A stretch of DNA of 64,000 nucleotides from positions 23,819 through 87,818 of the forward strand of contig JAGOPK010000015.1 in NCBI GenBank assembly GCA_017992055.1, written 5' to 3'. Shown piece by piece: positions 4,303 to 7,927 of this stretch (the stretch's first letter is position 1; every line of letters starts with the position of its first letter). The notes beneath the pieces are model-generated. The model did not search any database and was not told the origin of the DNA. It was given only the letters and a program-made list of their open reading frames with translations. A program made the translations under genes and the position numbers. This DNA is from Burkholderiaceae bacterium. Lineage in GTDB: Bacteria > Pseudomonadota > Gammaproteobacteria > Burkholderiales > Burkholderiaceae_C.

Positions 4303-4881
4303 TCAACCGCGCTCGAACTTGAACACCGCCACGCTGGCCAGCAGATTGGGGTGGCGGCGCACCACTTGGCCGGCGTGCAGGCCGAAGCTGTCCAGCACCT
4401 GCAGGCCGTTGCGCCGCGCCAGCACCTCGAAGTCGGCATGCGTGCCGACGCGGATGTTGGGCGTGTCGTACCACTCGTAGGGCAGGGCCCGCGTCACCGG
4501 CATGCGCCCGCGCAGCACGGCCAGGCGGTTGGGCCAGTGCGCAAAGTTGGGAAAGCTGACGATGCCGATGCGGCCCACGCGCGCGGTCTCGCGCAGCATC
4601 TTCTCGGTGTTGCGCAGGTGCTGCAGGGTCTGCAGCTGCAGCACCACGTCGAAGCTGCGGTCCTCGAACAGCGCCAGGCCTTCTTCGAGGTTCAGCTGGA
4701 TGACGTTGACGCCGCGGCGCGCACAGGCCAGCACGTTGTCGTCGTTGATCTCCACGCCATAGCCGCTGCAGCCCTTGCTGGCCTGCAGATGGGCCAGCAG
4801 CTCGCCCGAGCCGCAGCCCAGGTCGAGCACGCGCGAGCCGGCGGGCACCAGGCTGGCGATGACGTCCAGTTCGTGGCTCAT
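4303..4881 (-). CDS. metW: MetW, partner methyltransferase-like protein of methionine biosynthesis
   Basis: 192 residues, the usual MetW length. The SAM-binding glycine motif [12 protein letters not shown] lies near residue 20, followed by [11 protein letters not shown] and the MetW-typical QLNLEEGL and SFPNFAHW segments. In many betaproteobacteria MetW is required together with MetX for homoserine acylation. The ATG at 4881 overlaps the metX stop by four bases (ATGA), so translation is coupled and the gene falls under the SAM-II riboswitch that precedes metX. Identification is firm from motifs and neighbourhood. Confidence 0.95.
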
Positions 4882-6014
4882 CCGGCGATCCCCCGCGCAA
4901 TGCGCTCGAACGTGGCGCGCAGCACACCGTGGTAGCGCGGATCTTCGAGCAGAAAGGCGTCGTGGCCATGCGGCGCATCGATCTCGGCATAGCTGACGGC
5001 GATGCGCTGGTCGACCAGGGCCTTGACGATCTCGCGGCTGCGCGCCGGCGAAAACCGCCAGTCGGTGGTGAAGCTGACCACGGTGAAGCGGATGCCGGCG
5101 GCCGGCGCAAAGGCCGCGGCCAGGTCGCCGCCATGGGCGCGCGCGGGATCGAAGTAGTCCAGCGCCCGCGTGATCAGCAGGTAGGTGTTGGCGTCGAAGT
5201 ACTCGCTGAACTTGTCGCCCTGGTGGCGCAGATAGCTCTCGATCTGGAACTCGATGTCCTGCGTGCTGTAGGCCAGCTCGGCCTCGCGCATGGCGCGGCC
5301 GAACTTGGCCTCCATCGAGTCGTCGCTGAGGTAGGTGATGTGGCCGATCATGCGCGCCACGCGCAGGCCGCGCCGCGGCAGCACGCCATGGGCATAGAAG
5401 TGGCCGCCGTGGAACTCGGGGTCGGTGACGATGGCGCGGCGCGCCACCTCGTTGAAGGCGATGTTCTGCGCGCTGAGGTTGGGCGCGGTGGCCACGGCCA
5501 CGCATTCACCCACGCGCTCGGGGTGGCGCAGCGTCCAGCTCAGCGCCTGCATGCCGCCCAGGCTGCCGCCCAGCACGGCGGCCAGGCGGGTGATGCCCAG
5601 GCGGTCGAGCACACGGGCCTGGGCATCGACCCAGTCTTCCACCGTCACCACCGGAAAGCCGGCTCCCCAGGGCGCGCCGGTGGCCGGGTTGACGTGCATG
5701 GGCCCGGTGGAGCCGAAGCACGAGCCCAGGTTGTTGACGCCGATGACGAAGAAGCGGTTGGTGTCCAGCGGCTTGCCGGGCCCGACCAGGTTGTCCCACC
5801 AGCCCTCGCTGCGCTCCTGGCCTTCGTAGGTGCCGGCCACATGGTGGCTGGCATTCAGCGCATGGCACACCAGCACCGCATTGCTCTTGTCGGCGTTCAG
5901 GCGGCCATAGGTCTCGACCATCAGGTCGTAGGCCGGCATCACCGCGCCGCTGCGCAGCGGCAGCGGCTGGTCGAAGTGCAGGAGCTGGGGCGTGACATGC
6001 CCGATCGAGGCCAT
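4878..6014 (-). CDS. metX: Homoserine O-acyltransferase MetX
   Basis: 378 residues, alpha/beta-hydrolase fold, cytoplasmic. It acylates L-homoserine with acetyl- or succinyl-CoA as the first committed step of methionine synthesis. Catalytic residues: Ser in [11 protein letters not shown], Asp in [10 protein letters not shown], His in PHGHDAFLL. The [12 protein letters not shown] segment is family-typical. The acyl donor cannot be settled by eye; many betaproteobacterial MetX-MetW systems use succinyl-CoA. ATG at 6014 is preferred because the frame upstream runs through an intrinsic terminator and riboswitch aptamer. No strong Shine-Dalgarno sequence is seen. It forms an operon with metW. Confidence 0.95.
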
Positions 6015-6030
6015 GGCTGGAAACCGTCCG

Positions 6031-6071
6031 TAAAAACAAAACCCGGTGCCGCAGCAAGGGCGGACACCGGG
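6031..6071 (-). terminator. Intrinsic terminator in the metX leader (expression platform)
   Basis: On the minus strand a GC-rich hairpin with outer arms CCCGGTG and CACCGGG (6042-6070), extended by CCGC/GCGG inside, is followed at once by the U-rich run TTTTGTTTTT. It lies between the SAM-II aptamer and the metX start, so it would stop transcription before the gene. This is a textbook rho-independent terminator in form and the likely output of the riboswitch. Confidence 0.85.
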
Positions 6072-6079
6072 TCGGGCGT

Positions 6080-6132
6080 CCCTCTTTAGCGGCATTTGAT
6101 AAAGCGCCCGCAATCCGGAACAAATCGGCGCT
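6080..6132 (-). ncRNA. SAM-II (SAM-alpha) riboswitch aptamer upstream of metX
   Basis: Read on the minus strand. P1 arms AGCGCC (6132-6127) and GGCGCT (6108-6103) pair perfectly. The loop begins GATTTG, contains CCGG and ends ATTGC, as in the published SAM-II aptamer from an alphaproteobacterial-type metX leader. The pseudoknot strand CAAAT (6098-6094) pairs with ATTTG (6125-6121). The conserved 3' element GCTAAAGAGGG (6090-6080) matches the SAM-II GCUAAAAAGGG consensus. SAM-II binds S-adenosylmethionine and switches off metX/metA expression, which fits the gene here. Identified from recalled consensus, not from a covariance-model search. Confidence 0.88.
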
Positions 6133-6140
6133 GGGGCGGA

Positions 6141-6146
6141 AGTATA
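6141..6146 (-). promoter_or_regulatory. Probable -10 element of the metX-metW promoter
   Basis: Minus-strand TATACT stands out in a GC-rich intergenic region. A start site about seven bases downstream (near 6134) would begin the transcript immediately before the riboswitch P1 stem, so the whole leader would be aptamer plus terminator. No convincing -35 hexamer is seen at 17 bp. Confidence 0.6.
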
Positions 6147-6235
6147 GCCAGCGGACTGCCCCACTGTTCGGCGCATCAAGCCGGGCCGCGGCAGCGCCCA
6201 ATGCAGGCCATCGCCGCACCGCGAGGAGACTTCGC

Positions 6236-7927
6236 ATGCCGCATTGGCTGATGACCCTGGACCGTCTGTTTCCCGTGCGCTATCTGACGCTGGCCCTGGC
6301 CCTGGGCGGCGCGCTGGGCGGCCTGGCGCTGGCCGTTGCCGGCCAGCCGTCGGGCCCCTGGCTGGCGGCGCTGGGCCTGGGCGCCACCCTGCTGGGCCTG
6401 CGCGACCTGCGCCAGACCCGCCATGCCATCCTGCGCAACTACCCGGTGCTGGGCCATCTGCGCTTTCTGCTGGAGTGGGTGCGGCCCGAGATCCGCCAGT
6501 ACTTCATCGACTCGGACCGCGATGCCGTGCCGTTTTCGCGCCAGCAGCGCAGCCTGGTCTACCAGCGTGCCAAGGGCGAGAGCGACAAGCGCCCGTTCGG
6601 CACCCAGCTGGACGTGCGCCACGACAGCCACGAGTGGATCAACCACTCGATCGCGCCGACGCAGATCGCCGGCCACGACTTCCGCGTCAGCATCGGCGAT
6701 GCGAGCCGCTGCACCCAGCCCTATTCGGCCAGCCTGTTCAACATCTCGGCGATGAGCTTCGGCGCGCTCAGCGCCAACGCCATCCTGGCGCTGAACTCGG
6801 GCGCGCGCCAGGGCGGCTTCATGCACGACACCGGCGAGGGCTCGATCAGCGCCCACCACCGCGTGCATGGCGGCGACCTGGTATGGGAGATCGGCTCGGG
6901 CTACTTCGGCTGCCGCCACGACGACGGCACGTTCAGCGCCGAGAAGTTTGCCGCCACCGCCGCCGATGCCCAGGTCAAGCTGATCGAGCTGAAGCTCAGC
7001 CAGGGTGCCAAGCCCGGCCATGGCGGCGTGCTGCCCGGGCCCAAGGTCACGCCCGAGATCGCCGCCGCCCGCGGCGTGCCGGTGGGCGTGGACTGCGTCT
7101 CGCCGGCCGCGCACAGCGCCTTTGCCACGCCGGTGGAACTGCTGCGCTTTCTGGACCGGCTGCGCCTGCTGTCGGGCGGCAAGCCGGTGGGCTTCAAGTT
7201 CTGCGTCGGCCATCCCTGGGAATGGTTTGCCATCGCCAAGGCCATGCTGGAGACCGGATTGCTGCCCGACTTCATCGTGATCGATGGTGCCGAGGGCGGC
7301 ACCGGCGCGGCGCCGCTGGAGTTCACCGACCATGTGGGCGCGCCGCTGCAGGAAGGCCTGCGCCTGGTGCACAACACCCTGGTCGGCCTGGGCCTGCGCG
7401 AGCGCATCAAGCTCGGCGCCTCGGGCAAGATCGTCAGCGCCTTCGACATCGCCCGCGCCCTGGCCCTGGGCGCCGACTGGTGCAATTCGGCGCGTGGCTT
7501 CATGTTTGCGCTGGGCTGCATCCAGGCCCAGCACTGCCACACCGGCGCCTGCCCCACCGGCGTGGCCACCCAGGACGCGCTGCGCCAGCGCGCCCTGGTG
7601 GTGCCCGACAAGGCCCAGCGCGTGGCGCGCTTCCATGGCCACACGCTGGAGGCGCTGCGCGAGCTGCTGCAGGCCGCCGGCCTGCAGCATCCGTCGCAGA
7701 TCCGGCCGCAGCACATCATGCAGCGCCAGGCCGACCACGGCGTGCGCTCGCTGGAATCGGCCCTGCCCACCGTGGCCCCCGGCGCCCTGCTGGCCGCCGA
7801 GCAGGGCGCGGCCGACTGGCCCGGCCATGTGTTCGCCCGCCACTGGCCGCTGGCCACGGCGCACAGCTTCCAGCCGCTGGCCCGGCCACCGGCGCGCACG
7901 GCATCGCTGCAGGCCAGCCCGGCCTGA
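6236..7927 (+). CDS. FMN-binding glutamate-synthase-like protein (GltB2-type domain, membrane anchored)
   Basis: 563 residues. Two N-terminal hydrophobic segments (roughly residues 14-35 and 42-60) suggest membrane anchoring. The rest is the FMN-binding TIM-barrel domain of glutamate synthase: [21 protein letters not shown], a long GQGAKPG-like loop (here [10 protein letters not shown]), [19 protein letters not shown], and the Cys cluster [15 protein letters not shown] expected to bind a [3Fe-4S] centre. It lacks the amidotransferase domain and so is not a complete glutamate synthase; stand-alone proteins of this family have no firmly settled role. GAGGAG precedes the ATG at 6236. Transcribed divergently from metX. 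Confidence 0.88.

Follow-up and report, generated by a model that had tools for sequence, protein, structure and literature searches.

What controls the methionine genes metX and metW in the Burkholderiaceae bacterium of assembly GCA_017992055.1? The question arises in a window of 64,000 nucleotides (contig JAGOPK010000015.1, positions 23,819 to 87,818), on the minus strand of which an earlier note, made from the letters alone, had placed a SAM-II riboswitch, a kind of S-adenosylmethionine (SAM) sensor, in front of metX-metW. Judged by its sequence, the element is very probably a SAM-sensing SAM-II riboswitch (RF00521), and very likely it turns metX-metW transcription off when SAM is plentiful. 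The computations reported here gave homology to SAM-II, an intrinsic terminator, mutually exclusive pairings, and a fit between an aptamer strand and its own terminator that is better than permuted across genomes. On a wider scale, it is likely that the strand forming the SAM pocket is the antiterminator throughout proteobacterial SAM-II and has its complement in each terminator, that the published elements metXZ and RF02424 belong to SAM-II, and that RF00521 and RF01726 miss a form of the riboswitch with a hairpin in loop L3, found in part of the Burkholderiaceae.

The leader of metX-metW

Upstream of metX the minus strand reads TATACT-TCCGCCCC-AGCGCC-GATTTG-TTCCGG-ATTGC-G-GGCGCT-TTATCAAATGCC-GCTAAA-GAGGGACGCCCG-ACCCGGTGTCCGCCCTTGCTGCGGCACCGGGT-TTTGTTTTT..ATG, within which the following features are recognized (window coordinates).

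6141..6146, minus strand: -10-like hexamer TATACT of the putative metX promoter, ending 8 nt before P1 (TANRNT scan of leaders)
6127..6132, minus strand: P1 5' strand AGCGCC (RF00521 alignment; outer and inner pair variation in 89 leaders)
6121..6126, minus strand: L1 core GATTTG (ATTTG, demanded by the parsing rule, is present in 89/89 leaders; the unconstrained base before it is G in 88)
6110..6118, minus strand: P2 5' strand CCGGATTGC of the pseudoknot (covariation of pairs 16-50 and 15-51 seen in the wider set, no support in the family set)
6118-6115 and 6114-6110, minus strand: CCGG and ATTGC, letters within the P2 5' strand
6103..6108, minus strand: P1 3' strand GGCGCT (RF00521 alignment; pair counts in leaders)
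6091..6102, minus strand: L3, whose 3' end is a possible partner of the terminator 3' arm in the fold without SAM (folding; extended permutation test)
6080..6090, minus strand: P2 3' strand GCTAAAGAGGG, predicted SAM-pocket strand if P2 forms and otherwise antiterminator strand (permutation and covariation tests)
6054..6090, minus strand: predicted antiterminator, GGGACGCC (6082-6075) with GGTGTCC(G)C (6068-6060) and outer pairs (duplex, folding and permutation tests)
6032..6072, minus strand: intrinsic terminator, a 12-bp hairpin (6072-6041) with one bulge and a U-rich tract to 6032 (-22.5 kcal/mol)
4878..6014, minus strand: metX, homoserine O-succinyltransferase type (NF047916, 650.6 bits, cut-off 560)
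4303..4887, minus strand: metW, overlapping the end of metX (TIGR02081, 236.9 bits, cut-off 189.5)

At a permissive threshold RF00521 (SAM_alpha) matches positions 6141-6065 of the minus strand over its full length (model positions 1-79 of 79, 33.5 bits). No other match in the 5.9 Mb genome is credible (E 2e-5 for this one, 0.81 and 5.2 for the runners-up), and the methionine genes expected of the class lie downstream, metX and metW both scoring above their cut-offs as the proposed targets. All the letters quoted in the earlier note (P1, GATTTG, CCGG, ATTGC, GCTAAAGAGGG) are present, so that its SAM-II location stands, as do the start site that it placed at the aptamer edge and its beta-proteobacterial affiliation: the closest MetX proteins among the matches listed for the named set (see below) are those of Rubrivivax gelatinosus and one beta-proteobacterial metagenome-assembled genome, with 83% identity. 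The pseudoknot strands that it proposed have to be replaced, and it overlooked the terminator and antiterminator. Two other RNA matches, BcKCsr2 (RF02883, 17.5 bits) and mir-497 (14.6 bits), are weak and were taken as chance.

The divergent gene at 6236-7927 on the plus strand has a glutamate-synthase-like domain (NF008730, 129.6 bits, far under the cut-off of 1047). Elsewhere in the same genome, contig C17 carries two S-adenosylhomocysteine riboswitches above cut-off (61.2 and 47.5 bits).

Distribution among relatives

RF00521 was searched in 299 genomes of the same family and 14 control genomes at E <= 0.01; it matched 212 of the former, 69 of the 299 scoring above the gathering score of 36 bits (the Rfam database threshold), and none of the latter. 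Copies in four genomes of the same genus score 39.9, 39.6, 38.4 and 30.8 bits, three of them above cut-off, and in a class-wide sample matches were found in 89 of 274 genomes at E <= 0.001 (24 above cut-off). From the 212 matching genomes, the locus in the window, the 30 best-scoring loci and 60 others picked down to E 2.5e-4 were examined, the weakest of the 212 lying outside this fetched set. The core is located within 300 nt upstream of metX in 89 of these 91 loci; the other two (L030 and L086) were dropped because metX was not found within the fetched stretch, leaving 89 family leaders. A looser core pattern was found in 249 of the 299 family genomes, and a reversed control pattern gave 0 among the matches listed; two looser-pattern matches (in genomes G287 and G155) were rejected as unlike SAM-II.

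A second collection, the named set, comprises at least 119 loci found with an exact pattern fixing most of P1, L1 and GCTAAA (118 were parsed for pair counts); its core conservation is consequently not independent, and it may share genera with the family set. All its results, and those for the wider set of 111 distinct leaders, refer to the matches listed. The exact pattern was found in Thalassospira, Bradyrhizobium and Bosea (alpha-proteobacteria), Rubrivivax, Variovorax and Herbaspirillum (beta-proteobacteria), and Halomonas (gamma-proteobacteria). The next gene is metX in 49 of the 119 named loci, metZ in 33 (30 within 400 nt), and neither in 37, Bradyrhizobium and Halomonas being among the last group. 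The earlier note called SAM-II best known from alpha-proteobacteria; its occurrence in beta-proteobacteria is not unusual, judging by the frequency within the family (212/299), and has been in print since 2007 (PMC2258182).

Several individual loci differ in context or copy number. SAM-II cores precede metK in L184 (NCBIfam match), metH-like open reading frames in L140 and L185 (by eye), and a MetN-like transporter gene in L099 (348.6 bits, under the cut-off of 499.7). Genome G543, of the same class, has five SAM-II copies, all above the Rfam cut-off. Variovorax guangxiensis has a manganese riboswitch (RF00080, 64 bits; L139:1072-1258, plus strand) roughly 0.7 kb upstream of its SAM-II copy.

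Conservation of the promoter and aptamer

A TANRNT hexamer, sought 3-12 nt before P1, is present in 87 of the 89 family leaders (the window included) with gaps of 5-12 nt, versus 43 of 1780 mononucleotide shuffles. Every family leader (89/89) parses with a rule requiring ATTTG, TTGC, GCG and GCTAAA, the predicted ligand-contact bases (numbered as in 2QWY; for the SAM-contacting bases of SAM-II, see PMC11508383). P1 varies at its outer and inner pairs mostly with compensation: the outer pair is A-T in 73 leaders, T-A in 2, C-G in 2, T-G in 2, G-C in 1 and not standard in 9, and the inner pair is C-G in 70, T-G in 16 and T-A in 3, while the four middle pairs are constant. Of the 118 leaders parsed in the named set, 40 have a non-standard outer pair; the search pattern fixes the remainder of P1.

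The pairs predicted by the earlier note are thus kept in relatives for P1, mostly with compensation, and not for the pseudoknot ATTTG/CAAAT, which was rejected. The proposed partner of its G can be any base (C in 30, T in 29, A in 18 and G in 12 of the 89 leaders), that G shows no compensatory change, and all five pairs, with G-U allowed, are possible in just 55 of 89 family leaders and 75 of 118 named leaders. The SAM-II pseudoknot is instead CC..ATTGC paired with GCTAAAGAGG. P2 pair 16-50 forms in 91 of the 111 distinct wider leaders (86.2 on average with permuted columns, a count of 91 being attained in 1 of 2000 permutations) and pair 15-51 in 75 (permuted 60.3, 0/2000), whereas registers slid by one show no covariation. 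It is by this covariation in the wider set that a P2 pseudoknot joining the L1 side to GCUAAA..GG is recognized.

Terminator and proposed antiterminator

Of the 89 family leaders, 77 have a hairpin with dG <= -12 followed by a U-rich run (dinucleotide shuffles, 42 of 445), and so do 91 of the 119 named leaders (shuffles, 33 of 476). The distance from GCTAAA to the metX start has a median of 69 nt in the leaders and is 70 nt in the window. A simple terminator scan of window positions 5900-6400 found none, in our reading because its unbroken-stem rule excludes the bulged hairpin. Since a terminator stands between aptamer and metX, the switch is most likely transcriptional.

Without SAM, the aptamer 3' strand (GCUAAA and its tail) would be an antiterminator. 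In the window the predicted helix consists of GGGACGCC and GGUGUCC(G)C, bases that also build the terminator 5' arm. When growing transcripts were folded, the antiterminator belonged to the optimal structure for every 3' end sampled from 6062 down to 6041; at 6036 and 6031 the terminator won. The best full-length folds have -37.9 (antiterminator) and -38.4 kcal/mol (terminator), or -37.9 and -38.2 with P1 kept; as only 0.5 kcal/mol separates them, the two states are nearly balanced in these energies, which leave out the pseudoknot and SAM.

The fit was examined across genomes by a matched-pair test, in which the energy of pairing between the aptamer 3' strand (GCTAAA and tail) and the 5' arm and loop of its own terminator is compared with that of permuted partners, using leaders with a detected terminator only (78 of 89 in the family set, 77 of them distinct, and 96 of 119 in the named set). 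For the 77 distinct family leaders the energy is -12.68 versus -11.18 (sd 0.25) for permuted partners, reached in 0 of 10,000 permutations, and for 62 of the 77 the own terminator is a better partner than foreign ones are on average. The family-set controls are null (strand reversed, z 0.1; terminator 3' arm, z 1.1), as are composition shuffles (z -0.5, -1.6 and -0.9). The named set, with null controls, gives -10.85 versus -9.88 (0/10,000, n=96), and its representatives, one leader per similarity cluster, 25/10,000 (n=25). In an extended test, with the L3 end added to the strand and the whole hairpin as partner, z is -7.6 for the family set (n=77) and -6.2 for the named set (n=95); representatives reach 2/10,000 (n=12, family) and 5/10,000 (n=23, named; reversed control 6200/10,000), and both sets pooled with the L3-hairpin loci described below give 25/10,000 (n=35; reversed control 3017). 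The fit of the strand to its own terminator is thus weaker, and still present, with one representative per cluster. The motif TTT[AG]GC, complementary to GCUAAA, occurs in 23 of 78 family hairpins (shuffle mean 3.2, maximum 8) and in 31 of 96 named-set hairpins (shuffle mean 4.3, maximum 10).

Other candidate strands were discarded: the P1 5' strand with GATTTG (z -1.4) and L3 (z +2.0) gave null results against the terminator 5' arm and loop, and the L1/P2/P1-3' strand showed no such effect as an antiterminator in the full sets.

Proposed mechanism

RNA polymerase would start at P1 or just before it. With SAM present, L1 and P2 would close around the ligand and P2 would hold GCUAAAGAGG, so that the hairpin at 6072-6041 could form freely and its U-rich tract would end transcription before metX (OFF). 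With SAM absent, the same strand, extended to GGGACGCC, would pair with GGUGUCC in the terminator 5' arm and further out with the terminator loop and 3' arm, and with the terminator blocked metX-metW would be transcribed (ON). The binding of SAM and the direction of the switch would carry over from the class, of which the Agrobacterium tumefaciens member binds SAM (PMC1273637), and its use in vivo is presumed.

Evaluation of the proposed and alternative explanations

A number of results weigh against this mechanism. A scan of the whole window at Rfam gathering thresholds listed 0 matches, the copy scoring 33.5 bits where 36 are needed; the covariance-model search suggested by the earlier note therefore succeeded only as a full-length match below threshold, and its literal no-hit outcome is outweighed by that match, its uniqueness in the genome, and the above-threshold matches in 69 of the 299 family genomes. 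As a whole, the leader folds no more stably than shuffles (z -0.84), no published measurement of SAM binding or termination was found for the window sequence, and 12 of 89 family leaders are without a terminator at -12. If P1 and one helix only are counted, the terminator state has the advantage, at -32.5 versus -24.5 kcal/mol (a difference of 8). Foreign partners outperform the own one in a median fraction of 0.34/0.28. Among 11 strict family representatives the matched-pair result is weak (211/10,000; reversed control 713), for which reason the test was repeated on the named set, and the reversed control of the extended test on 12 representatives reaches 494/10,000. In the family set with a fixed register, P2 pair 16-50 is absent in 33 of 86 leaders (formed in 53) and pair 15-51 in 19 (formed in 67), neither beats permutation, and the slid pair 15-52 does better (46/2000); position 14-52 is unsupported in either set, and an energy test of loop and tail (P2b) was null or worse. 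The 5' side of P2 is nearly constant in the family set and the tail varies; shifted registers or the second role of the tail may be the reason for this failure, which is a guess.

The same leader could instead act on translation, GAGGG being a Shine-Dalgarno-like site that P2 would hide in the presence of SAM, and the terminator merely limiting expression. A precedent exists in Sinorhizobium meliloti metA, where a Shine-Dalgarno sequence in the aptamer serves a start codon 74 nt downstream with a terminator in between (PMC9373788); since the window has a similar 70 nt, distance does not exclude such an arrangement. In addition, in four leaders without a terminator (L026, L105, L180 and L189) a start codon follows GCTAAA at a distance of 5-6 nt; their tail resembles a Shine-Dalgarno site, much as it does in SAM-II members that act on translation. 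Against this, many relatives have other letters in place of GAGG (GACAG, GACGG, GCGAG) and yet retain the fit to their own terminator, and a terminator independent of the switch would need no complementarity to the aptamer strand. Translational control of metX-metW is accordingly considered unlikely. The four leaders themselves suggest an apparent change from transcriptional to translational control.

It is very improbable that the element is not SAM-II but a member of metXZ as a distinct class of RNA (PMC4239095; Leyn et al. 2014), perhaps with another ligand of the methionine pathway: RF00521 matches seven of eight named leaders tested at E <= 0.01, metZ leaders included, one exact core pattern spans alpha-, beta- and gamma-proteobacterial genomes, and the helices described for metXZ (region 1 with 4, region 2 with 6) follow the order of an H-type pseudoknot such as SAM-II has, a likeness of order. 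That the resemblance to SAM-II is due to chance and the hairpin a plain terminator without a sensor would accord with the sub-threshold score and the empty listing at gathering thresholds, but is hardly conceivable; it is refuted by the conservation of the core, which precedes metX at this position in 89 of the 91 loci, and the looser pattern is present in 249 of 299 same-family genomes with 0 reversed-control matches among those listed. Transcriptional control by a SAM-II riboswitch remains the preferred explanation, and the element is one more SAM-II with a terminator in beta-proteobacteria, a kind known since 2007 and in itself an ordinary regulator.

A form with an L3 hairpin

Of 20 loci fetched after the looser pattern, 18 carry a hairpin within L3, all before metX (that of L256 is masked or unresolved over part of its interior), and each of the 18 is followed by a terminator with dG <= -8. 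The hairpin varies with compensation (CGGAAC/GTTCCG, CGAAAC/GTTTCG, CGAAAGCC/GGCTTTCG). Neither RF00521 nor RF01726 matched any of the 17 loci scanned at E <= 1. The matched-pair result of this subset is not clean: the extended strand gives 59/10,000 with a reversed control of 145/10,000, and five representatives give 1722/10,000. Genomes G002 and G123 seemingly have two SAM-II cores each, one with and one without the L3 hairpin.

Comparison with known systems

The element resembles SAM-II (RF00521) in P1, L1 with GATTTG, the P2 strands, GCTAAA, a promoter next to P1 and a methionine gene downstream, and many SAM-II members in its intrinsic terminator (PMC1273637). It differs from the RF00521 consensus in its sub-threshold score, its shorter L1/P2 loop, and its target, metX-metW in a beta-proteobacterium. 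SAM-II_long_loops (RF01726) is the same class with, as its name says, enlarged loops; it was found in 0 of 120 same-family genomes at E <= 0.01, that of the window included.

RF02424 (Bp2_287) is filed as a Burkholderia small RNA, located before methionine genes in most genomes and suggested to be a cis-acting element (Khoo et al. 2012, PMC3521395); a review lists RF02424 as expressed together with RIT77 and BTH_s31 (PMC10987360). From its sequence it appears to be the antisense strand of a SAM-II aptamer: its reverse-complemented consensus reads TGCGTC-GATTTG-ATTTCAG-CTTGC-GGACGC-..-CAGCTAA (37 model positions are unprinted), in which both P1 strands have changed (GCGTC/GACGC) and a short L3 hairpin can be made out by eye. 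RF02424 matches the Novimethylophilus element (L096:3876-3989, minus strand) on the opposite strand with 39.3 bits, and it matches four L3-hairpin loci (L260, L255, L262 and L251) in antisense with 29.5-21.2 bits (E 0.0033-0.47, three of the four at E 0.27-0.47 only). All matches placed on SAM-II cores are antisense and under the cut-off of 70, none being on the same strand. The genome of the window has no match at E <= 0.001, a threshold at which 11 places in 9 of 150 same-family genomes were found; five of these loci were fetched and contain no SAM-II core, and one unfetched place (G035:C34, 27.9 bits) overlaps a core on the other strand, so that RF02424 is no tool for finding the switch. 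An Rfam small RNA family with reported expression in Burkholderia thus appears to be the other strand of a SAM-II switch.

The 2007 survey reports SAM-II with terminators in beta-proteobacteria and calls its control of termination not yet established (PMC2258182), and Meyer et al. 2009 also name beta-proteobacteria (PMC2704228). According to Leyn et al. 2014 (PMC4239095), SAM_alpha is found in Rhizobiales and Rhodobacterales only, and metXZ is a novel beta-proteobacterial element that precedes metXW or, in Methylophilales, Nitrosospira and Thiobacillus, metZ. The element in the window shares with metXZ its occurrence in beta-proteobacteria, its metXW/metZ context and the terminator that follows, and a pseudoknot has been proposed for metXZ, which was published as novel and apart from SAM_alpha (PMC4239095). 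Of the eight named leaders tested with RF00521, only that of Herminiimonas was missed, and the matches include leaders of metZ (O-succinylhomoserine sulfhydrylase) in a Nitrosospira species (32.1 bits) and in Novimethylophilus of the Methylophilaceae (36.9 bits). The antiterminator suggested by Leyn et al., in which the terminator would pair with GC-rich regions 3 and 4, guessed here to correspond to the stretch from CCGG to the P1 3' strand, gave a null matched-pair result (z +1.3 in the family set, -0.6 in the named set). Among the papers listed by literature searches on the two elements, which did not cover most subscription journals, none was seen to equate metXZ with SAM-II.

If metXZ and RF02424 are SAM-II, then SAM-II would be a main sensor of methionine genes in beta-proteobacteria rather than a speciality of alpha-proteobacteria, and the apparent contradiction between the surveys of 2007 (SAM-II in beta-proteobacteria) and 2014 (SAM_alpha in two alpha-proteobacterial orders) would be resolved. 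The pairing of the pocket strand with the terminator would provide a base-pair model for the control of termination by SAM-II, for which partial experimental support exists in S. meliloti, as far as the accessible text goes.
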